From Myxococcales bacterium (GTDB lineage Bacteria > Myxococcota_A > Polyangia > Polyangiales > Houyiibacteriaceae), in NCBI GenBank assembly GCA_019637115.1, contig JAHBWH010000049.1, positions 1-48,480 on the forward strand: a DNA stretch of 48,480 nt, written 5' to 3'. The notes under the pieces were generated by a model. It had not been told where the DNA came from. It made no database searches and was given only the letters and a program-made list of their open reading frames with translations. Of the stretch, positions 2,853-48,480 are shown piece after piece. The position numbers were made by a program, and so were the translations under genes. Position 1 is the first letter of the stretch; every line of letters begins with the position of its first letter.

Positions 2853-3548
2853 GTGGATCGCGACCCTCGAGTGCCGCAGATGCGGCGGGCAGCGCGGCCG
2901 CTGCGACGGCGCTGGATCGGCGGCGTGCTCGCGACCGCCGTCGTTCTCGGCGGCGTCACGATATGGCGGTTCCAACCCCAGGCCACTGCGCGGGGGCCGC
3001 TCACGCCGACGGAGATCGAAGTGCGTGGCCTCGAGAGCCCGAACGCGCCCGTGTCCGCAGGGGATGACGCGCGTGCCGTCGCCCAAGCCAGCGCGGGACG
3101 TGACCCGTCGGCGAACCTCCCCGCGAGCGATGACGGGCCTGCGACTTCCCCCGCACCGACGGACCATGACCAACCTGCAACCGCGACCGCACCCGCGGGC
3201 GATGACCAGCCTGCGACCGCCCCCGTTCCCGCGGGCGATGACCAGCCTGCAGCCCCGCCTTCGGATCGCAGCGCGGCGACGCCCTCCGGTCTCGCCCCGA
3301 GCGAAGCTCCTTCGGTCACCCCCGCCCGAACCGTCCGAGGCGTGGCTAGGGGAACGATCTTCGTGAACACGCTGCCCTGGGCCCGCGTCGACCTCGACGG
3401 GGTCTACATCGGCAACACCCCCATCTCAGGACGGGCCGTCGCGGCCGGCGAACACCGCCTTCGACTGACGACGGACGAAGGACAGGTCTACGAGGTCACG
3501 TTGAACGTGAACCCTGGTGCGAACACACGCTTGGTGTATCGGTTCTGA
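2853..3548 (+). CDS. Membrane-anchored PEGA-domain protein
   Basis: The 231-residue product has a basic N-terminus, one membrane segment at about residues 21-38 (WIGGVLATAVVLGGVTIW), and a long Pro/Ala/Asp linker. The linker includes three near-copies of a GDDQPAT-type heptad-to-undecad. The C-terminal domain at about residues 165-231 is a PEGA beta domain (GTIFVNTLPWARVDLDGVYIGNTPI). PEGA domains are surface or periplasmic beta domains often attached to kinases and TPR proteins in myxobacteria, so the C-terminus is probably outside the inner membrane. The start is uncertain: GTG 2853 and ATG 2880 are both possible, and neither has a clear ribosome binding site. Confidence 0.75.
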   Translation: MDRDPRVPQMRRAARPLRRRWIGGVLATAVVLGGVTIWRFQPQATARGPLTPTEIEVRGLESPNAPVSAGDDARAVAQASAGRDPSANLPASDDGPATSPAPTDHDQPATATAPAGDDQPATAPVPAGDDQPAAPPSDRSAATPSGLAPSEAPSVTPARTVRGVARGTIFVNTLPWARVDLDGVYIGNTPISGRAVAAGEHRLRLTTDEGQVYEVTLNVNPGANTRLVYRF

Positions 3549-19067: not shown

Positions 19068-20675
19068 ATGCGCTTCTGTCCCTCCTGCGGCGCTCGATAT
19101 CCTGCGGAGTCGAGGTTTTGCCCCATCGACGGGCAGATCCTCGAGGATCTCCCCGACGAGGCGACGCAGGTCGCGAACCCGATGATCGGCCGGACGATCG
19201 ACGGCCGCTACCGGGTCGAGGACGTCCTCGGCGAGGGCGGCATGGGCATCGTCTACCTCGCGACGCACGTCGGCCTCGGCAAGAAGATGGCCCTGAAGGT
19301 CCTGCACGGCGACATGGCCCGCGACGAGGTCGTCGTCGCGCGTTTCGTCCAAGAGGCGCAGGCGTCGACCGCGATCGGCCACCCGAACATCGTCGACATC
19401 TCCGACTTCGGCCGCCTCGAGGACGGCACCGCGTACTTCGTGATGGAGATGCTCGAGGGCGAGGCGCTCACCGGTCGCATCGGCCGCGGGCCGATGCCGC
19501 TCGAGGCCGTCCTCGACATCACCGAGCAGATCGCCTCGGCGCTCGGCGCGGCGCACGCGCGCGGGATCGTCCACCGCGACCTGAAGCCCGACAACGTCTT
19601 CCTCACGCGCCGGGGCCGCGAGGAGGTCGTGAAGATCTTGGACTTCGGCATCGCGAAGGTCGGCGGCGCGGCCTCGAAGCTCACGAAGACCGGGATGATC
19701 TTCGGCACCCCGCATTACATGAGCCCCGAGCAGGCCGCGGGGCAGAGCGTCGACGCGCGGGCAGACATCTACGCGCTCGGCATCATCGTCTTCGAGATGG
19801 CCACCGGGACGGTGCCCTTCGACGGCGATACGTTCATGGGCATCCTCTCGAAGCACATGTTCGAGCCCGCGCCGCGCCCGAGCGATTTCCTGCCAGCCGC
19901 CCACCCCCTCGAGCCGCTCGTCCTGCGCGCGCTCGCGAAGAAGCCCGAAGATCGCTACCCGTCGATGGAGGCGCTCGCCGCAGACCTGAGGCTCATTCGC
20001 GACGGCGGCCGGATCTCCGCGCCAGCGCCCATCAAGGCGCCGTCCGGCTTCGGTGAGGCGCTGCCGGCCGCGACGCTCCCGACCGCTCGCGGGCCGGCGC
20101 TCGCGCTCGCGGTGATCGGTCTCTTGCTGGTGGTCGGCGTCGCAGCGGGGGTCTTCTTCGCGTTCCGCACGGAGCCGGAGCGCGCGCGCAGCGTGGTGGC
20201 GTCCGACCGCACCCCTGAAGCGGTCACGTCCAGCGCCGTGACCCCGACCTCCGTGCGCCTCGCCGAGCCCGAGCCGAGCGACCCCGCTCCTGCCCGCGCC
20301 GTCGGCGCCGAGAGCGTCGCCCAGGCGTCGGTGCGCATCGAGAGCGCGCCGCCGGGGGCCGCCGTGCTGATCGACGGGGCCATTATCGGGAACACGCCGA
20401 TCGCGCTGCCGCGACCCGCGCACGGGACCCAACGCGTCGAGCTTCGGGCGCGGGGCTATCAGCCGCGCTTCGTCGTGCTCTCGGAGGCGACGGGCGATCA
20501 GATCGTGGCGTCGCTCGATCCCGTCCCGGCCCCAGGCACGATGCGTCCCCGCTCGACGACGACGGCCGTCGAGGCGCCCATGGTCGCCGAGCCCGTGCCA
20601 CCGCCCTCTCCGCCCCCCGTGATGCGACCCGCGACCATGATCTCGAGCGAGGTCGTCGATCCTTGGGCTCGATGA
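19068..20675 (+). CDS. Ser/Thr protein kinase with N-terminal zinc ribbon, TM and PEGA domain
   Basis: The 535-residue product starts with a degenerate zinc ribbon (MRFCPSCGARYPAESRFCPI; the fourth ligand is Asp). The Hanks-type kinase spans about residues 46-310, with LGEGGMGIVYLA, the HRDLKPDN catalytic loop near 167 and DFG near 190, all intact. A single membrane segment lies at about 344-367. A PEGA domain follows at about 419-475, then a Pro-rich tail. The topology implies a cytoplasmic kinase and an external PEGA sensor. It follows the SPFH protein and Asp-rich lipoprotein genes on the same strand. Its substrate is unknown. Confidence 0.95.
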   Translation: MRFCPSCGARYPAESRFCPIDGQILEDLPDEATQVANPMIGRTIDGRYRVEDVLGEGGMGIVYLATHVGLGKKMALKVLHGDMARDEVVVARFVQEAQASTAIGHPNIVDISDFGRLEDGTAYFVMEMLEGEALTGRIGRGPMPLEAVLDITEQIASALGAAHARGIVHRDLKPDNVFLTRRGREEVVKILDFGIAKVGGAASKLTKTGMIFGTPHYMSPEQAAGQSVDARADIYALGIIVFEMATGTVPFDGDTFMGILSKHMFEPAPRPSDFLPAAHPLEPLVLRALAKKPEDRYPSMEALAADLRLIRDGGRISAPAPIKAPSGFGEALPAATLPTARGPALALAVIGLLLVVGVAAGVFFAFRTEPERARSVVASDRTPEAVTSSAVTPTSVRLAEPEPSDPAPARAVGAESVAQASVRIESAPPGAAVLIDGAIIGNTPIALPRPAHGTQRVELRARGYQPRFVVLSEATGDQIVASLDPVPAPGTMRPRSTTTAVEAPMVAEPVPPPSPPPVMRPATMISSEVVDPWAR

Positions 20676-41545: not shown

Positions 41546-42442
41546 TCAGGGCTCGTTGTCGAACCAGCGCTCCTCGGCGAGCGTGTTGGTCGTCGCCCGC
41601 ACCGGGGAGACGCGCACGACCACGCGGCCACCTTCGAAACACGGCGCATCGTCCCGGAGGAGGGAGCAACGCTCGACCGCGCCGCACGGCAAGAACGCCG
41701 CGTCGCCGATCATGAAGTTCCACGCGCGGTCACCCGCTCCGAGCCGCCCGTCGTTGTCTCGATCCGCGAGGACCTCGACGACCGCGACGCCGCCGTCCGG
41801 CAGGATGCCCGGCAGCAGCACGCCGTCCGCCGCCCGGTTCGCGTCGTTCGTGCGGTAAAAGCCGATCGCGCGATCGATGTCCTCGGGGGTGCGCTCGCGG
41901 ACGCGGACCTCGGCGCCGCCCGCGAGGTCGAAGATCCGGTCGGGCCCGCAGAAGCGCACCTCGAGGTCGACGCCAGCGCTGACGATCGGCGCGTCGGCCG
42001 TCCGGAATTGGAAGCCGGTATTGTGCAGGAAGGGTTCGGGCCCCGTCGTGCAGGCGTCCTCGAGGATCCACGCGTGGTCGCCGCGCGAGAGCCCGGGCAC
42101 GTCGTCGAAGTCGGCGTAGAAGTCGATCGCGGGGAGCCCCTGACGCGGGTCGGTGCGGGGCCGCACGGCGTTCGGCATGCGCAGGTTCACGGTGGCGTTG
42201 CCGAGCGGATCGAAGACGGCGAGCGCCTCGAGGGTCTGCGCCCCGTCGGCGCGCGCGCGCGACAGCGCGACCTCGAAGCGGTTGAAGTGCCGGAGCGTCG
42301 CGTCGGGCGCGGCGTGGGGCCCGAACTCGCGCAGACGGAGCTGGAGGTCGCAGCCGCGATCCTCCTCGAAGCGACCCGTGTCGGTGATCGCGAAGCAGCC
42401 GCCGAGGCCGAGCGAGAGCAGCAGGATGCAGGAGCGCGCCAT
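41546..42442 (-). CDS. Lipoprotein coupled to a TPR protein
   Basis: From the ATG at 42442 the product is 298 residues with a clean lipobox, CILLLSLGLGGC (Cys16). The body is a soluble secreted protein with strand-rich segments and several cysteines, including a C-terminal Cys pair (PCGAVERCSLLRDDAPC). A calcium-like loop occurs (LADRDNDGRLGAGDRAW). Its ATG shares one base with the stop of the upstream TPR gene (TGATG), so the two are co-translated. No family is recognised. Confidence 0.75.
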   Translation of the reverse strand: MARSCILLLSLGLGGCFAITDTGRFEEDRGCDLQLRLREFGPHAAPDATLRHFNRFEVALSRARADGAQTLEALAVFDPLGNATVNLRMPNAVRPRTDPRQGLPAIDFYADFDDVPGLSRGDHAWILEDACTTGPEPFLHNTGFQFRTADAPIVSAGVDLEVRFCGPDRIFDLAGGAEVRVRERTPEDIDRAIGFYRTNDANRAADGVLLPGILPDGGVAVVEVLADRDNDGRLGAGDRAWNFMIGDAAFLPCGAVERCSLLRDDAPCFEGGRVVVRVSPVRATTNTLAEERWFDNEP

Positions 42443-43314
42443 CAGAACCTCACACGCAGGTCGGCCTGACAGCCGGTCGGTCCACACGCGGCGCTCGGCT
42501 CGACGGCGCGGTCGCCGCCGCGTCGGCCGACGAAGAGCAGCACGACGCCGGTCACGGTCACCGCCGCGCCACCGAAGAGCAGGATGTCCGTCGCGAGCAC
42601 GCGGCGGTCGGCGCGCGCGCGCTCTCCCTCGAGGTCGAAGCCCGCGACGCAGCGGTTGTCCGGGCAGTTGTCCTCGAGCGTGCCGACCTGCGCGTTCGCC
42701 ATGAGGCCGGAGACGAGCGAGCCCGCGAGCATCGCGACGCCGACGCCGCCGACGACGAAGCCGATCGGGTTGAGGGGTCTGCCCTCGGCGAGCCGACGCG
42801 CCTCCTCCTCGCGGCGACGGGCCTCCGCCGCCTCGAGCTCGAGCCGGCGCGCCTCGGCCTCGAGCGCTTCGCGCTCGGTCGCCTCGCGCTCTCGGCGCGC
42901 GCGCTCTTCGTCGACCGTGCGCTGGATCGCGCGGAGGCGTACCTCGAGCGCGGAGGCGTCCTCGATGCCCGGATCGGCCTCGAGGTAGGCGGCGAGCGCG
43001 CGTGCGGCGTCTTCGAGCATGCTCCCGTCGCGGTAGGCGAGGTAGGCGTTGAAGAGGAGCGACGGGCGGCGAGAGAGCTGGTACGCGCTCTCGAACTCGC
43101 GCGCGGCCTCGCCGAAGCGACCCTCGTCGAAGAGGGCCTGTCCGACGCGGAAGCGCGAGCGCGCCGCGTCGTCGTCGAGGCCCTCGGTGCGCATGTCACG
43201 GGGGTCGTAGTCCTCGGCGTCTTGGGCTGCGGCGGTGGCGGGGCCGAGCACGAAGAGGCTCAGCAGCCCTAGCGCGCCCAGCCCGACGCTCCTTCGCTCG
43301 TCGCGATCTCTCAT
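42442..43314 (-). CDS. Secreted TPR/coiled-coil membrane protein
   Basis: The 290-residue product has a signal peptide (SVGLGALGLLSLFVLGPATA, then AAQ). A TPR-like region (about 50-115: VGQALFDEGRFGEAAREFES, SLLFNAYLAYRDG) leads to a charged coiled coil (about 125-185, Glu/Arg-rich). Two C-terminal membrane segments follow, separated by a loop with a Cys pair. A similar plan occurs in the gene at 46569. It is coupled to the downstream lipoprotein. Confidence 0.7.
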   Translation of the reverse strand: MRDRDERRSVGLGALGLLSLFVLGPATAAAQDAEDYDPRDMRTEGLDDDAARSRFRVGQALFDEGRFGEAAREFESAYQLSRRPSLLFNAYLAYRDGSMLEDAARALAAYLEADPGIEDASALEVRLRAIQRTVDEERARREREATEREALEAEARRLELEAAEARRREEEARRLAEGRPLNPIGFVVGGVGVAMLAGSLVSGLMANAQVGTLEDNCPDNRCVAGFDLEGERARADRRVLATDILLFGGAAVTVTGVVLLFVGRRGGDRAVEPSAACGPTGCQADLRVRF

Positions 43315-43402
43315 CGAATCTCCCCAATGCGACGCCTACGGGGATCGTCGCTCTCGTGGAGGGTACTACCTCGGCGAGAGCGGCGCGTCACGAGATGCGC
43401 AA

Positions 43403-43519
43403 GGGTGGGGGGAGGTTGGGAGGTTGGGAGGGGAGCGGGGTTGGGAGGGAGGAAGTGGGGGAGGGAGGGAGTGGGGGAGGGAGGGAGTGGGGGGGCAGGG
43501 GGAGGGGCAAGGGCAGGGG
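43403..43519. other. G-rich tract, potential G-quadruplexes
   Basis: About 115 bp of the plus strand consist largely of GGG/GGGG runs separated by short A, T or C breaks (for example GGGAGGGAGTGGGGGAGGG). The stretch lies just beyond the stop of the Cys-rich lipoprotein gene and upstream of the TPR gene. The plus strand could fold into G-quadruplexes; the minus-strand RNA would be C-rich. Confidence 0.85.
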
Positions 43520-43532
43520 ACTTTTGGACTGG

Positions 43533-45056
43533 TCAACGTCTCCCCGACCAGGAACCCCCGAAGTCGCCGCCTACGAGCGAGCCTTCCCACCTGCCGGGGG
43601 TCAGGCTCGTCCCGCTCACGATGGGAGAGCTCCCCTTCAGGCTCATCACGTCGAGCCGCAGCCGCGCCATGTTCAGCGCGTCGACGAGGCGGTCGATCTG
43701 CGAATCCAAGAAGCCGTTGCACGCCGAGCGCGCGAGCTCGCGGGCCTCGTCGGGGGTGATGAGCGGGAGGTCGATCTCCAGCTCGATGCGACGCGCGGCG
43801 TTGCCGATCTCGGTGCAGATACGGCCACCCTGCGCGCGGAGCATCGCCTCGGCGGTGCGGTAACGCCGGCTCGAGCTCTGCTCGACGACCGCGTTCACCG
43901 CCCACGCGATGATCGCGCCGATGCCGACGTTCACGTCGTGCTGCGAGATGTAGAAGACGCCGCAGACCGCCTGCGCGCCGTACTCGGAGGGCTCGAAGGT
44001 CCAGTCGATGATGTCGGCGGGGCGCCCGCGCATCCGGGCGCCGCGGTACTCGAACTCGACCTCGGTCCAGACGTTCTGGCCTCGGTAAGCGTCGCGCGGC
44101 GCGGGCGCCGACCAGAGCGTCATCTGTTCCTTCACGAACCAGGTGGAGAGGATGTCGTTGAGGTCCGCGATGCCGCCCGCGGCGTCGCGCGCGTAGTCGG
44201 GGACGTTGGCGTCGATCCAGGACTCGATGGCGTTCCATACGAGGTTCTCGAGCAGGCTCGGCAGCCCGAGTGAGGGGCGCGGTCCGCGCCCGGACAGGAA
44301 GCGGAGCGGCGCGGCGACCGCGTCGAGGAAGCCAGAGAGCCAGCTCGGGAGCGCCTCGCGGAAGTGGTACACGCTGTCGACGTTCCAGACCCGCGGCGAC
44401 TGCAGCGCGGGGTGCGTGACGTCGCACGCGCTCTCGGGGATACACGCGCCCGCGGCGCAGAGCATGCCCGGCGGGCACTCGTCGTCGGCGATGCAGCCGT
44501 CGCCGTCGGGCACGCAGCGGCCGTCGGTGCAGATGGCGCCGATGGGGCAGTCGGCGGTGCGGACGCACACGCACGCGCCGTCCATCGAGCACATGAGCCC
44601 GTCGGGGCAGTCCTCGCCGTCGAGGCAGGTGCGCGGGATGCGTGGGTCGGGGGTGCAGCGGCCCGCGATGCAGAGGTTGCCCGCGCCGCACTCGGGGTCG
44701 AACTCACAGACGTCGCCGCGCTCGTCGGGGGCGACGCAGACGCCATCGCGGCACTCGTTCGGGAAGACGCAGTCGTCGCCGCACGCGCTTGGGGGGACTA
44801 CGCAGGCGCCCGCGTCGCAGATCAAGTCGCCGGGGCAGTCGGCGTCACGCCCGCACTCGGCGGTTCCCCCGTCCGGGAGCGGGTCGCCCGGCCGCCGCGG
44901 CGGGACGCAGAGGTCCCGCTCGCAGACGAAGCCCGCGCCGCAGTCCCGGTCGTCGAGGCACTCCGGCTCGCGGCCACCGGGCCCGAGGGTGCTGCTAGCG
45001 CAGCCAGTAAAAGAGGCCGCGGAGAGGAGAAGGGAAGCGAGGACGAGACGCCACAT
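43533..45056 (-). CDS. Cys-rich lipoprotein with Dickkopf-like repeats
   Basis: The 507-residue product has a lipobox near Cys19 (LASLLLSAASFTGCASS). About six to seven short cysteine modules follow (CLDDRDCGAGFVCERDLC, CGRDADCPGDLICDAGAC, CIADDECPPGMLCAAGAC), a pattern common in myxobacterial surface proteins. The C-terminal half is globular (LPSLLENLVWNAIESWIDAN, IIDWTFEPSEYGAQAVCGVF). The modules may form a rigid disulphide stalk. The binding partner is unknown. A G-rich tract lies just past the stop. Confidence 0.8.
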   Translation of the reverse strand: MWRLVLASLLLSAASFTGCASSTLGPGGREPECLDDRDCGAGFVCERDLCVPPRRPGDPLPDGGTAECGRDADCPGDLICDAGACVVPPSACGDDCVFPNECRDGVCVAPDERGDVCEFDPECGAGNLCIAGRCTPDPRIPRTCLDGEDCPDGLMCSMDGACVCVRTADCPIGAICTDGRCVPDGDGCIADDECPPGMLCAAGACIPESACDVTHPALQSPRVWNVDSVYHFREALPSWLSGFLDAVAAPLRFLSGRGPRPSLGLPSLLENLVWNAIESWIDANVPDYARDAAGGIADLNDILSTWFVKEQMTLWSAPAPRDAYRGQNVWTEVEFEYRGARMRGRPADIIDWTFEPSEYGAQAVCGVFYISQHDVNVGIGAIIAWAVNAVVEQSSSRRYRTAEAMLRAQGGRICTEIGNAARRIELEIDLPLITPDEARELARSACNGFLDSQIDRLVDALNMARLRLDVMSLKGSSPIVSGTSLTPGRWEGSLVGGDFGGSWSGRR

Positions 45057-45269
45057 GGCGCGAGTGTACAGGATTCACGCTTTCAGGCCCGTCACGTATC
45101 GGTGGCGCCTCACTCCCCCGCGAGCAGCCGCTCGAGGCTCGGACAATCGGTACTGGGTACGGGTTGGAAGGGGGTCGGGGTTGGGTGGCGCCGGGGGTGC
45201 GTGGGGTTGTGCTGCAATCGGTACTGGCCGGTCATCAGACCCAGTCCGGCGAACGCCGCCGCGAAGGCG
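45057..45269. other. Gap with duplicated 3'-end sequence
   Basis: A 29-bp copy of the last codons of the next lipoprotein gene lies at 45110-45138, identical to 45270-45298. A 13-bp sequence, CAATCGGTACTGG, also occurs twice (45144 and 45215). No full gene is present. Confidence 0.5.
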
Positions 45270-45836
45270 TCACTCCCCCGCGAGCAGCCGCTCGAGGCGC
45301 TCGCGATCGGCCGCCGGGACCGCGGCCGTGGCGCGCGCGCACGCTTCGCGATGGGCCACGGCGTGGTTCGGGAGCAGGCACTCCTGCGCCGCCGTGGGGA
45401 GCTGCTCGCAGGCGTGCACGAAGAGGCCGCGCGGCGGCATTGGGTGCACCGCGTCGGGCTCTCGCGCGCGGACCTCGGCGGCCATCGCGGCCACCGCGTC
45501 GTAGGCCGCGTCGCACAAGGACGCGCCCACCGCGGCGGCCTCGGCCGCCGCCAGGGCGGCGCCGACGGTCTCTGCCTCGTCCGGATCCAGCACGACCGCC
45601 GGTCGGAGCACACGCTCGGCCTCGTCTGCGTCGTGGTCGAGCGGGAGGTCGAGCTCGTCGAGGGCGTCGTCGCCGTCGAGCTCGCTCAGCCCGAGCGCCT
45701 GGAAGTCGACGCGCGGGTCGATCGTCCGCTCGACCGGCGGCTGCGCGCGGATGCGCGCGGTCCGATCGCGCAGCACGTCCTCCCCGTCCGTGCAGGCCAC
45801 GGGGACCACGAGCAGCAAGGCCGCGAGCAGGCGCAT
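45270..45836 (-). CDS. Small lipoprotein, function unknown
   Basis: The 188-residue product begins MRLLAALLLVVPVACTDG, a compact lipobox with Cys15. The mature protein is Asp/Ala-rich with a cysteine-containing C-terminal part (SLCDAAYDAVAAMAAEV, VHACEQLPTAAQECLL, REACARATAAV). No domain is recognised. Its last ten codons are copied exactly 160 bp downstream. Confidence 0.65.
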   Translation of the reverse strand: MRLLAALLLVVPVACTDGEDVLRDRTARIRAQPPVERTIDPRVDFQALGLSELDGDDALDELDLPLDHDADEAERVLRPAVVLDPDEAETVGAALAAAEAAAVGASLCDAAYDAVAAMAAEVRAREPDAVHPMPPRGLFVHACEQLPTAAQECLLPNHAVAHREACARATAAVPAADRERLERLLAGE

Positions 45837-45905
45837 CGAGACGTCTTAGCCTTCGCGTGACGGAGAGGCCAGAAACGAGCCTCGGGTCGCGGTCAGCTTC
45901 CTATG

Positions 45906-45933
45906 AGGGGCTGTCGCCAGGTCGCCAGCCCCT
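45906..45933. terminator. Hairpin between lipoprotein genes
   Basis: AGGGGCTG at 45906-45913 pairs with CAGCCCCT at 45926-45933 across a 12-base loop, followed by further GC-rich complementary stretches to about 45965. It lies downstream of the minus-strand lipoprotein at 46042 and upstream of the next lipoprotein. It could end the upstream transcript. Confidence 0.35.
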
Positions 45934-46041
45934 CCCCCACGGGGCGTGAAGCCCCGCGGGGCCCCCTCCCACGAGCCTACGCTCGCTCCGCTCGCTGCGT
46001 GCCGTCCGGTAGGGCGGCTTGCGAATTCGGCTGAGCTTCTT

Positions 46042-46572
46042 TCAGGGCGCCGAGCAGCCCGCGACGAGGCGAGGGTCGTCGCAGTCGGGGCGCGGGAGGG
46101 CGCCGTGATCCGTGAGGCATCGCGGGTTCACCTCGATGGGCACGCACGCGCCCTCGACGCACGTGCGGCCAGCCTCGCAGGTTCGCTCCACGCACCGCGT
46201 GTCGAGGTGGAGGGAGACGTCGACGATCCGCCCCGGGGCGAAGGGCACGATCAGCTGCTGCTCGACGCTCGACGAGCCGCCGGTCGGGCGGGGGATCTCG
46301 CCCTGGAGTCGAAACGCGACGCGCTCGGACCGATCCTGGACGATGCCCTGGCTGAGCCGGGCGCCGGTCTGCGCGATCGACAGCCGAGTGTCGCTGCAGC
46401 CGAAGACGCGCTGGCCCTCGTCGTCGGTGACGCAGAGGCGCACGATCGTCTCGGGCCCGACGAGCGCCGGGTCGATGGAGTAGCAAGCGAAGACCTCGGT
46501 GAGCTCGCCACCGCAGCTCGCCGCGAAAGCCGCCAGCGCGAGCGCGAGCGCGGTCGGGGCTGCGCGGGTCAT
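46042..46572 (-). CDS. Lipoprotein coupled to a TPR-PEGA protein
   Basis: From the ATG at 46572 the 176-residue product has a lipobox with Cys20 (ALALALAAFAASC). The mature part begins GGELTEVFACYSIDPALVGP and ends with a Cys-rich segment (DTRCVERTCEAGRTCVEGAC, CLTDHG). Its ATG overlaps the stop of the TPR-PEGA gene by ATGA. The arrangement mirrors the 42442/41546 gene pair. Confidence 0.75.
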   Translation of the reverse strand: MTRAAPTALALALAAFAASCGGELTEVFACYSIDPALVGPETIVRLCVTDDEGQRVFGCSDTRLSIAQTGARLSQGIVQDRSERVAFRLQGEIPRPTGGSSSVEQQLIVPFAPGRIVDVSLHLDTRCVERTCEAGRTCVEGACVPIEVNPRCLTDHGALPRPDCDDPRLVAGCSAP

Positions 46573-47504
46573 CGGCCGAACCTCAGCGCGGTCGCGGTCG
46601 GCAGGTGCCCTTCGAGCGGCGACGGGCTGGCGGTCGCTGCCACCGCGATCGCGACCGCCACGCCGACGAGGACGACGCCGCCGAGCGCGGCCCAGAACCA
46701 CCACCGCCCGGCGATCGGCTCGTGCACGGCGAGGTCGACCCGCAGGTCGCGGACCTCGTCGCGACCGAGCGCGACGCGCTCGCGGTGGGCGCGGTAGCCC
46801 CGCGCCGAGAGCTCGAGCGTGTGCTCACCGACGCCGAGCTGGAGCTCGAGGGGCGTGTCTCCCGTGCGACCGACGAGCGCGGCGTCCACGCGGACGTCCG
46901 CGGGCACGTTCGAGACGACCCGCAGCGTGCCCTCCGGCGCGACGGGCGCCAGCGTCGCCGTCACGCGGGCTTCTCGGCCCGCGGTGAGCGTCGCGCTCCG
47001 CTGGGTGGCGACGTGTCCTTCGGCGCGGATGTGGAAGCGCTGCGACCCCGGGTCGACCGCGACGGGCCGCGCGAAGGGCGCCCTTCCGAGCGAGCGCTCG
47101 CCGAGCGAGACCTCGGCCCCCGTGGGAGAGACCTCGAAGCGCACGAAGGCGACGAGCGCGGAGAGCTCCTCGATCGCGTCGTTCACGGCGGCGCGCCGCG
47201 TGGCGTCGACGTCCGGATCGGCGTCGAGGTAGCCGCGATACGCCTCGATGGCCTCGGCCGGTCGCTCGAGCGCGCGGAGGGTTTGCGCGAGGTTGAAGAG
47301 CACCACCGGCACGGGGCGGAGCGCGTACGACCGCTCGAACGCCGAGAGCGCCGCGGGGAAGTCTCCGCGCTGGTAGGCCCCCGCGCCCTCGACAAAGAGC
47401 GAGCGCGCAGCCTCCTCGGGCTGAGCCGACGCCGGCGCGACCAGGTGCGCGAGCAGAAGGGGCACCAAGAGGGAGGCGCGGAGACGGGCGAGCACGGGGG
47501 CCAC
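46569..47504 (-). CDS. Secreted TPR protein with two PEGA domains
   Basis: From the GTG at 47504 the product is about 311 residues. A signal peptide (SLLVPLLLAHLVAPASAQPE) is followed by TPR-like repeats (about 30-105: AYQRGDFPAALSAFERSYAL, FNLAQTLRALERPAEAIEAY). Two PEGA domains follow (RFEVSPTGAEVSLGERSLGR and LRVVSNVPADVRVDAALVGR) and a C-terminal membrane segment (WFWAALGGVVLVGVAVAIAV). The start is weakly supported, as no ribosome site is clear. The upstream frame is open but low in quality. It is coupled to the downstream lipoprotein by ATGA. Confidence 0.75.
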   Translation of the reverse strand: MAPVLARLRASLLVPLLLAHLVAPASAQPEEAARSLFVEGAGAYQRGDFPAALSAFERSYALRPVPVVLFNLAQTLRALERPAEAIEAYRGYLDADPDVDATRRAAVNDAIEELSALVAFVRFEVSPTGAEVSLGERSLGRAPFARPVAVDPGSQRFHIRAEGHVATQRSATLTAGREARVTATLAPVAPEGTLRVVSNVPADVRVDAALVGRTGDTPLELQLGVGEHTLELSARGYRAHRERVALGRDEVRDLRVDLAVHEPIAGRWWFWAALGGVVLVGVAVAIAVAATASPSPLEGHLPTATALRFGR

Positions 47505-48091: not shown

Positions 48092-48480
48092 TTGAAGCCG
48101 GCGTCGAGCACCGCGGCCCGCTTCGGGACGAGCCACCTCGGGCAATACCGGCTGGTCCGGAAGCTCGGGACCGGCGGCATGGCCGAGGTCTTCCTCGCCG
48201 CGCACCGGATGGGCGACTCGCTGACCCGGCCGGTCGTGATCAAGGCGATCCTCCCGCACCTCGGCGAGGACGATCGTTTCGTCGAGATGTTCCTGCGCGA
48301 GGCGCGCGTCGCGGCGATGCTCTCCCACCCGAACATCGTCCACATCCACGACGTCACCCGGCTCGACGGCCGGCCGTGTCTGGTCATGGAGTTCCTCAAA
48401 GGGCGGGACCTGTGGACCGTCCTGGCGCGGCTCGGCGCGCACGGCGAGGCCGTCCCGCCCGAGGCCGCCGCAGCGACGAT
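48092..48480 (+). CDS. Ser/Thr protein kinase, 5' part (cut by window edge)
   Basis: From TTG 48092, with GGGGAGGG 5-10 bp upstream, the frame reads YRLVRKLGTGGMAEVFLAAH, then VVIKAILPHLGEDDRFVEMF, then LSHPNIVHIHDV and CLVMEFLKGRDLW. These are the glycine loop, the catalytic lysine strand and the hinge of a bacterial Hanks-type kinase. About 129 codons are visible and the catalytic loop lies outside the window. Its C-terminal domains cannot be seen. Confidence 0.85.
   Translation, partial: MKPASSTAARFGTSHLGQYRLVRKLGTGGMAEVFLAAHRMGDSLTRPVVIKAILPHLGEDDRFVEMFLREARVAAMLSHPNIVHIHDVTRLDGRPCLVMEFLKGRDLWTVLARLGAHGEAVPPEAAAAT

Follow-up and report, generated by a model that had tools for sequence, protein, structure and literature searches.

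Overlapping genes for TPR-membrane proteins and lipoproteins recur in Polyangiales and may encode a modular trans-envelope system

A 48,480-nt stretch of DNA from a Myxococcales bacterium (the window) holds, between positions 41546 and 47504, two gene pairs in which a secreted tetratricopeptide repeat (TPR) protein with C-terminal membrane segments is encoded directly upstream of, and overlapping with, a lipoprotein. The initial annotation saw in this repetition a family of envelope complexes not described as such, and expected further pairs elsewhere in the genome. Such pairs do recur: judged against control genes they are well above chance both in the genome of origin (G000) and in a complete 10.3-Mb genome from another family of the order (G043), and they occur in further genera and families. 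We regard the pairing itself as near certain. In the window, TPR gene 46569-47504(-) and lipoprotein gene 46042-46572(-) share four bases (ATGA), and TPR gene 42442-43314(-) and lipoprotein gene 41546-42442(-) share one (TGATG), junctions that suggest translational coupling; genes are named below by their lower coordinate. The two pairs represent two classes, the TPR protein having one C-terminal membrane helix in class A (46569) and two in class B (42442). The window corresponds to contig C379 in a draft genome of 8.88 Mb, and the contig begins at position 1 of the window. Genes were called with an in-house codon-score script and not with a published gene finder, membrane helices were assigned by a hydropathy window and lipoproteins by a lipobox pattern.

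The frequency of coupling was assessed in 40 regions of G000 around matches of two TPR queries, plus the window (a broader profile gives 73 matches in this genome), and a pair was scored when the lipoprotein start lay at -60 to +15 nt from the end of the TPR gene. A coupled downstream lipoprotein is present for 19 of 33 secreted TPR-membrane genes, compared to 14 of the 502 remaining genes there (Fisher 1e-17). For G043, loci were chosen by TPR similarity alone, and the 46 TPR places taken, of 79 matches, comprise 42 called genes with a C-terminal helix, one without a helix and three with no gene; the coupled lipoprotein is present for 17 of the 42 TPR-membrane genes vs. 7 of 216 other genes (3e-10), the latter coming partly from loci fetched via the lipoprotein. 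Secreted non-TPR proteins with a C-terminal helix have a lipoprotein partner in 2/24 (G000) and 1/13 (G043) cases. When the analysis is restricted to tightly coupled next genes on the same strand (again at -60 to +15 nt), the next gene is a lipoprotein for 17/18 TPR genes vs. 9/84 others in G000 (5e-12), and for 17/23 vs. 5/31 in G043 (2e-5), where this control was drawn from TPR-chosen loci only. Offsets of -4 and -1 are the commonest. The coupling counts skipped genes with less than 500 nt downstream or without a stop. Several G000 pairs missed by the script were found by hand: TPR genes at L089 and L104 overlap a lipoprotein gene and L070 has one 104 nt further on. The match beside L080 is doubtful, and at L077:9927 and L090 the lipoprotein gene is on the upstream side. 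At L085:9338-10179 (G000:C113), a class B TPR gene is seemingly split in two overlapping frames with the lipoprotein still downstream, which appears to reflect a pseudogene, an assembly error or a gene-caller error.

The number of membrane helices in the TPR protein predicts the kind of lipoprotein next to it. In a table of 43 pairs, which includes the hand-added L089 and three loci fetched via the lipoprotein (L162, L172 and L175) and in which three pairs lie more than 15 nt apart, one-helix TPR proteins are paired with a class A lipoprotein in 16/19 cases and two-helix TPR proteins in 0/24 (3.7e-9), none of the 24 lipoproteins beside the latter matching the class A domain; without the three fetched loci the counts are 13/16 vs. 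0/24. The class A profile was partly built from these same lipoproteins, and helix number played no part in building it. In addition, distances between TPR proteins correlate with those between their lipoproteins across 49 class A pairs (r 0.52, 0/5000 shuffles), with the same result without the orthologs of the window pair (n=43). Co-divergence is also seen within G043 (r 0.76, n=10, 0/5000) and within G009 (r 0.58, n=6, p 0.02); at least one pair of G043 and of G009, under other locus names, lies outside these within-genome tests, and G034 (four pairs) was left out. The correlation indicates that both genes of a pair move and diverge together as one unit, which is no proof of contact. A third, small lipoprotein type starting C....L.L.L.LP (L102:10637-11140 and L250:1926-2489) accompanies a one-helix TPR gene in two different families of the order.

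The pairing is recovered as well when the search starts from the lipoprotein. With the lipoproteins as the only queries against 57 relatives (G000 included), matches to 41546 were found in 12 genomes and matches to 46042 in 20. A two-helix TPR gene lies directly upstream of the 41546 relative in 9 of the 11 genomes other than G000 (G001, G003, G004, G006, G007, G008, G009, G011 and G015). In G048 the TPR gene ends ~370 nt before the match; since that match begins only at query residue 84, the TPR gene is probably close to its lipoprotein here too. In G046 there is no TPR gene beside the 41546 relative. Among the best 29 non-own loci of a longer list for 46042, the TPR gene is directly upstream in 21, downstream in two and absent in six; the 46042 relatives include metagenome-assembled genome records labelled Sandaracinus sp. 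NAT131, Myxococcota Prado145, Deltaproteobacteria HCUG1432-5 and Myxococcales UBA1660, Sandaracinus being a member of the Sandaracinaceae, Polyangiales. A more inclusive profile for the class A domain, built from 27 sequences, gives 75 places in four genomes, of which 30 have a TPR-membrane gene directly upstream and four directly downstream. These 75 rows were counted from 86 places (seven from G034 and two from G009 were not found again, one from G009 was not fetched and one is half of a split G000 match), and one G009 protein contributes two of them. The class A domain is present in at least 36 of 189 genomes sampled across the phylum, 26 of them from the same order, a lower bound because 22 candidates were scored per genome. 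Outside the order, L264-L270 and L272 are short solo relatives of the class A domain (158-201 residues) with a common motif [VI]C[GS][DN]..[VI]P and no nearby TPR match.

Within the window, much of the anatomy originally read into the pairs stands: signal peptides, C-terminal membrane segments, overlapping lipoproteins, one coiled coil and two PEGA domains; the exceptions concern 42442, which has two helices and a TPR match below the Pfam cut-off. Gene call, Pfam matches and orthologs give 46569 a signal peptide, TPRs, two PEGA domains (46731-47129, as 46731-46931 and 46944-47129), one membrane helix (~46635-46691) and a short tail (46572-46634). The PEGA domains, identified in a PF08308 search of the own genome, are above the curated cut-off (55.9 bits, E 4e-15, two domains), as is the TPR match above that of Pfam (TPR_2, 7e-9). 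The tails following the helix, listed for 49 class A pairs, contain P-x(1,3)-G-[NTDS] in 29/49 (a motif first read by eye and later counted) and G-[NTDS]-x(1,3)-[PG]-G in 18/49. For 42442, the gene call, Pfam, hydropathy and orthologs indicate a signal peptide, a TPR-like region (TPR_2, 16.1 bits vs. a cut-off of 27), a charged coiled-coil stretch, two hydropathy-predicted helices (residues 184-202 and 244-262; ~42709-42765 and ~42529-42585) and a tail ending RVRF, with no Pfam match to PEGA. Its TPR-like region is homologous to that of 46569 (BLASTP E 6e-8), and its coiled coil, loop cysteines and tail are also present in the seven orthologs inspected. The pairs described as parallel modules have homologous TPR halves; they are two classes and not copies, since helix number, C-terminal tail and lipoprotein family all differ. 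As a side observation, the same seven orthologs have a second Cys pair in the C-terminal tail (e.g. CGPTGC), and at least two loop cysteines are present in 20/45 two-helix proteins.

The two window lipoproteins belong to different families. Lipoprotein 46042 (class A, 176 residues, mature from the Cys at 46515) and lipoprotein 41546 (class B, 298 residues, mature from the Cys at 42397), both defined by gene call and alignment, have no profile similarity (hhalign probability 0.5%), so that homology is rejected at that level and the structural likeness anticipated for them is not borne out there; 41546 belongs to a family of its own, separate from class A. The C-terminal cysteines pointed out in both are kept in the aligned orthologs of 46042 (six rows) and missing from two of ten aligned relatives of 41546 (L115 and L116). 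The model of 46042 is a beta-sandwich (mean predicted local distance difference test score, pLDDT, of 82) followed by a small Cys-rich end, with no Foldseek match at E<=0.001 (the best, at 0.016, is a secretin pilot protein); among solved structures the best VIA Z is 7.4, and the best E by sequence is 0.45. The structural matches are only of a generic beta-sandwich kind and we claim no fold family. The model of 41546 is poor (mean pLDDT 52). More generally, class A lipoproteins share a domain that opens with T-x-x-[LIV]... immediately behind the lipidated Cys; V-V-V-D-[ST]-D frequently comes next, ahead of a small Cys-rich motif, C...C..G.TC..G.C. The heads at the far end vary. Among 30 paired lipoproteins scanned with Pfam, of 41 outside the window, they include disintegrin-like domains, MopE and other Cys-rich repeats, FG-GAP, kelch, RCC1 and SBBP propellers, C-type lectin, Peripla_BP_6/ANF_receptor and DUF4832, and 8/30 have no Pfam match. 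By the +2/+7 lipoprotein sorting rule, as quoted in PMC5562445, the residues following the lipidated Cys point to the outer membrane for most paired lipoproteins, because K at +2 and A at +7 are each present in only two of 43 (D at +2 is likewise found in two).

The window locus is itself conserved and includes a protein kinase gene. Divergent from 46569 lies a Ser/Thr kinase gene (48092-48478(+), identified by Pfam) that is cut by the window end, and both pairs plus a homolog of this kinase occur within ~9 kb in L153, L154 and L155, with order and strand rearranged. In the kinase homologs of L153 and L155, the kinase domain is followed by a membrane helix with a C-terminal part beyond it. In that part, L153:11200-12945 and L155:7354-8856 show a PEGA-like stretch (by eye), an Arg-rich run and the terminus LGMQ[IL]DL.YP. 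Across G000, using the kinase places among the matches listed, of 156, a kinase gene is found within 3 kb of 12/33 TPR genes vs. ~4.4 expected (p 8e-4), or of 11/33 (p 0.003) without the hand-added kinase of the window.

How could such pairs work? In what we consider the best reading, each pair would be a cassette of two genes belonging to a large set of paralogs. The first of them would encode a Sec-exported, membrane-anchored periplasmic scaffold made of TPRs, sometimes with PEGA domains or a coiled coil, followed by one or two helices, and the second, translationally coupled gene would encode an outer-membrane lipoprotein. The membrane-proximal N-terminal region of the lipoprotein would dock on its own scaffold and the far end would be an exchangeable binding module for a target outside the cell or in the wall, such that scaffold and lipoprotein together span the envelope, serving as receptor or tether. 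For the minority of cassettes that have a Ser/Thr kinase gene nearby, those of the window among them, the kinase may modify the scaffold or read its state, and this linkage would make some pairs sensory. We favour scaffold and receptor because they are the simplest cover for the gene overlap, the class match, the co-divergence and the variable heads, all of which are observed directly, as is the conserved locus with its kinase. The repeated family proposed at the outset holds up, with many further class-matched, co-diverging pairs and no description of them in the open-access papers searched; that the partners touch in an envelope complex, that the lipoproteins sit in the outer membrane, and that ligands are bound and signals passed is what we infer.

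Several observations weigh against this reading. By the script, a lipoprotein within 250 nt downstream is missing for 12/33 TPR-membrane genes in G000 and 24/42 in G043, and no kinase was found, among the matches listed, within 3 kb of 21/33 TPR genes. Within the fetched stretches, 35 of the 75 class A places have no nearby TPR match and six have a distant one only; the domain therefore also occurs alone, and obligatory pairing is rejected. None of ten loci fetched outside the order (L264-L273) has a TPR match, and among ten further loci from other families within the order (L274-L283) the TPR gene is directly upstream in two and on the same strand further downstream in four, so the coupled form seems confined to, and looks like a speciality of, part of the Polyangiales. 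Co-divergence within G000 alone is not significant (r 0.30, n=8, p 0.10), and co-divergence in general may stem from co-duplication of neighbours rather than from contact. Finally, two features of the TPR-membrane proteins speak against the simple topology. K/R residues are more frequent before than after the class A helix in 30/49 proteins, and the reverse holds in 4/49; by the positive-inside rule this is the opposite of what a type I protein with periplasmic TPRs should have. In class B, the interhelical loop carries a Cys pair, kept in the seven orthologs inspected (among L110-L118), that is hard to square with a simple hairpin, which would put the loop in the cytoplasm. Because of the charge pattern and the loop cysteines, we hold the trans-envelope scaffold with its outer-membrane lipoprotein receptor or tether only tentatively, at a little short of an even chance.

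The main rival is that the TPR-membrane protein acts as a dedicated escort or export factor for the surface display of its own lipoprotein, without a lasting complex, which we judge doubtful but well worth considering. The presence of one scaffold per lipoprotein, the gene overlap and the class match would suit a dedicated chaperone, and a C-terminal Phe in 33/48 two-helix TPR proteins (vs. 57/767 of all called genes, which include many two-helix ones) resembles the C-terminal signal carried by outer-membrane proteins. PMC5562445 and PMC8546572 also provide a precedent in SitB, which is encoded overlapping and upstream of the myxobacterial SitA lipoproteins and aids their transfer. However, neither window TPR protein has a Pfam match to a beta-barrel or channel domain, such a partner is lacking in the vicinity of many class A lipoproteins, and a soluble escort would need neither membrane helices nor PEGA domains. 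A further possibility is that the lipoprotein is a toxin of a kin-discrimination system like SitBAI, given the same gene order, the overlap and, in class A, the combination of a constant N-terminus with a variable C-terminus. This is very unlikely: no toxin or nuclease domain is among the Pfam matches of the 30 scanned and two window lipoproteins (novel toxin types are possible, as 8/30 are matchless), and a same-strand next gene within 30 bp is present in 8/40 pairs, encoding 356-785 residues and including two kinases and two lipoproteins, with no small immunity-like gene.

It is also conceivable, if unlikely, that the two genes merely belong to an envelope regulon, being expressed and duplicated together, with products that do not touch. 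Co-duplication of neighbours can yield co-divergence, and solo members of both families exist, but the way the number of helices goes with the class of lipoprotein and the existence of pairs in reversed order (4/75 places) fit a functional link better. The least probable explanation is that the pairs merely reflect how abundant lipoproteins and TPR proteins are when a genome is large. By a simple pattern, and with the TPR pairs included, 80/612 genes in the own-genome regions and 23/122 close same-strand downstream genes are lipoprotein-like. Against this, the control genes in the two genomes are followed by a lipoprotein within the offset range used for the TPR genes in just 14/502 and 7/216 cases, and their tightly coupled neighbours are lipoproteins in 9/84 and 5/31, on which grounds chance pairing is rejected.

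The scaffold and receptor reading can also be set against known systems. Slam proteins have an N-terminal TPR part and a C-terminal barrel. The window proteins are different in that no outer-membrane barrel domain is matched by either of them, which is why we do not consider them Slam/DUF560 members; the TPR_Slam model matches 46569 weakly (E 0.059, below cut-off). LuxP and LuxQ are a pair of periplasmic-binding protein and membrane transducer, and a likeness to them exists at L072:4108-4863, a two-helix TPR gene whose adjoining lipoprotein matches Peripla_BP_6/ANF_receptor and which has a kinase gene on its other side. Here, however, the partner is a two-helix TPR protein and not a sensor kinase, and the other scanned lipoproteins carry other or no known domains. 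Slam/DUF560 exporters are encoded together with surface lipoproteins (PMC5449769, PMC8406197). For SitBA(I) of Myxococcus outer membrane exchange, PMC5562445 and PMC8546572 describe, as in our pairs, a signal-peptide gene overlapping a downstream outer-membrane lipoprotein gene, a lipoprotein with a constant N-terminal and a variable C-terminal part, and many alleles per genome. According to the same papers, SitB has no domain homology, a predicted beta-barrel and a type I signal peptide, whereas the upstream protein here has TPR/PEGA domains and membrane helices; in addition, toxin domains (by Pfam, in 30 plus two lipoproteins) and immunity-like genes (in 40 pairs) are lacking. The likeness to SitBA(I) is one of layout only. 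TraC, a TPR protein in the envelope of myxobacteria that assists the transfer of lipoproteins in outer membrane exchange (PMC8546572), is itself the lipoprotein, unlike the TPR proteins here, and the passages on it mention no coupled lipoprotein gene.

We found no description of the TPR/lipoprotein pair family in the open-access papers searched, a set outside which most subscription-journal papers fall. In Sandaracinus-like myxobacteria, the repeated cassettes look like an undescribed plug-in system for envelope receptors or tethers. This could be important, as large myxobacterial genomes encode many lipoproteins, TPR proteins and eukaryotic-like kinases of unknown role; if one plug-in design underlies the pairs, a large number of unannotated genes per genome would each be given a partner to test, and it would become feasible to ask how the outer-membrane lipoproteins of these bacteria communicate with the remainder of the cell. 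A bolder version, possible though we would not expect it, is that the Polyangiales have an undescribed modular trans-envelope receptor system, in which a large genome would encode ~20 or more TPR-membrane scaffolds, each joined by a swappable-head outer-membrane lipoprotein of its own and some wired to Ser/Thr kinases, through which the cell would sense via lipoproteins and not via barrels or sensor kinases.

Two further lipoprotein genes are located between the window pairs. The larger, 43533-45056(-), encodes a Cys-rich protein with 33 Cys and Pfam matches to DUF7107 and Dickkopf_N, and is indeed flanked by the pairs as first noted. In L153, a Cys-rich lipoprotein missed by the gene caller resembles 43533 and is at the corresponding place (by eye, unscored). 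The smaller, 45270-45836(-), absent from the initial annotation, was identified by gene call and homology and has a homolog within the same ~9 kb in L153 and L154. G000 as a whole has 156 Pkinase and 90 PEGA matches. Elsewhere in the window, the kinase encoded at 19068-20675 includes a PEGA domain, and another PEGA match is located at 3351-3545.

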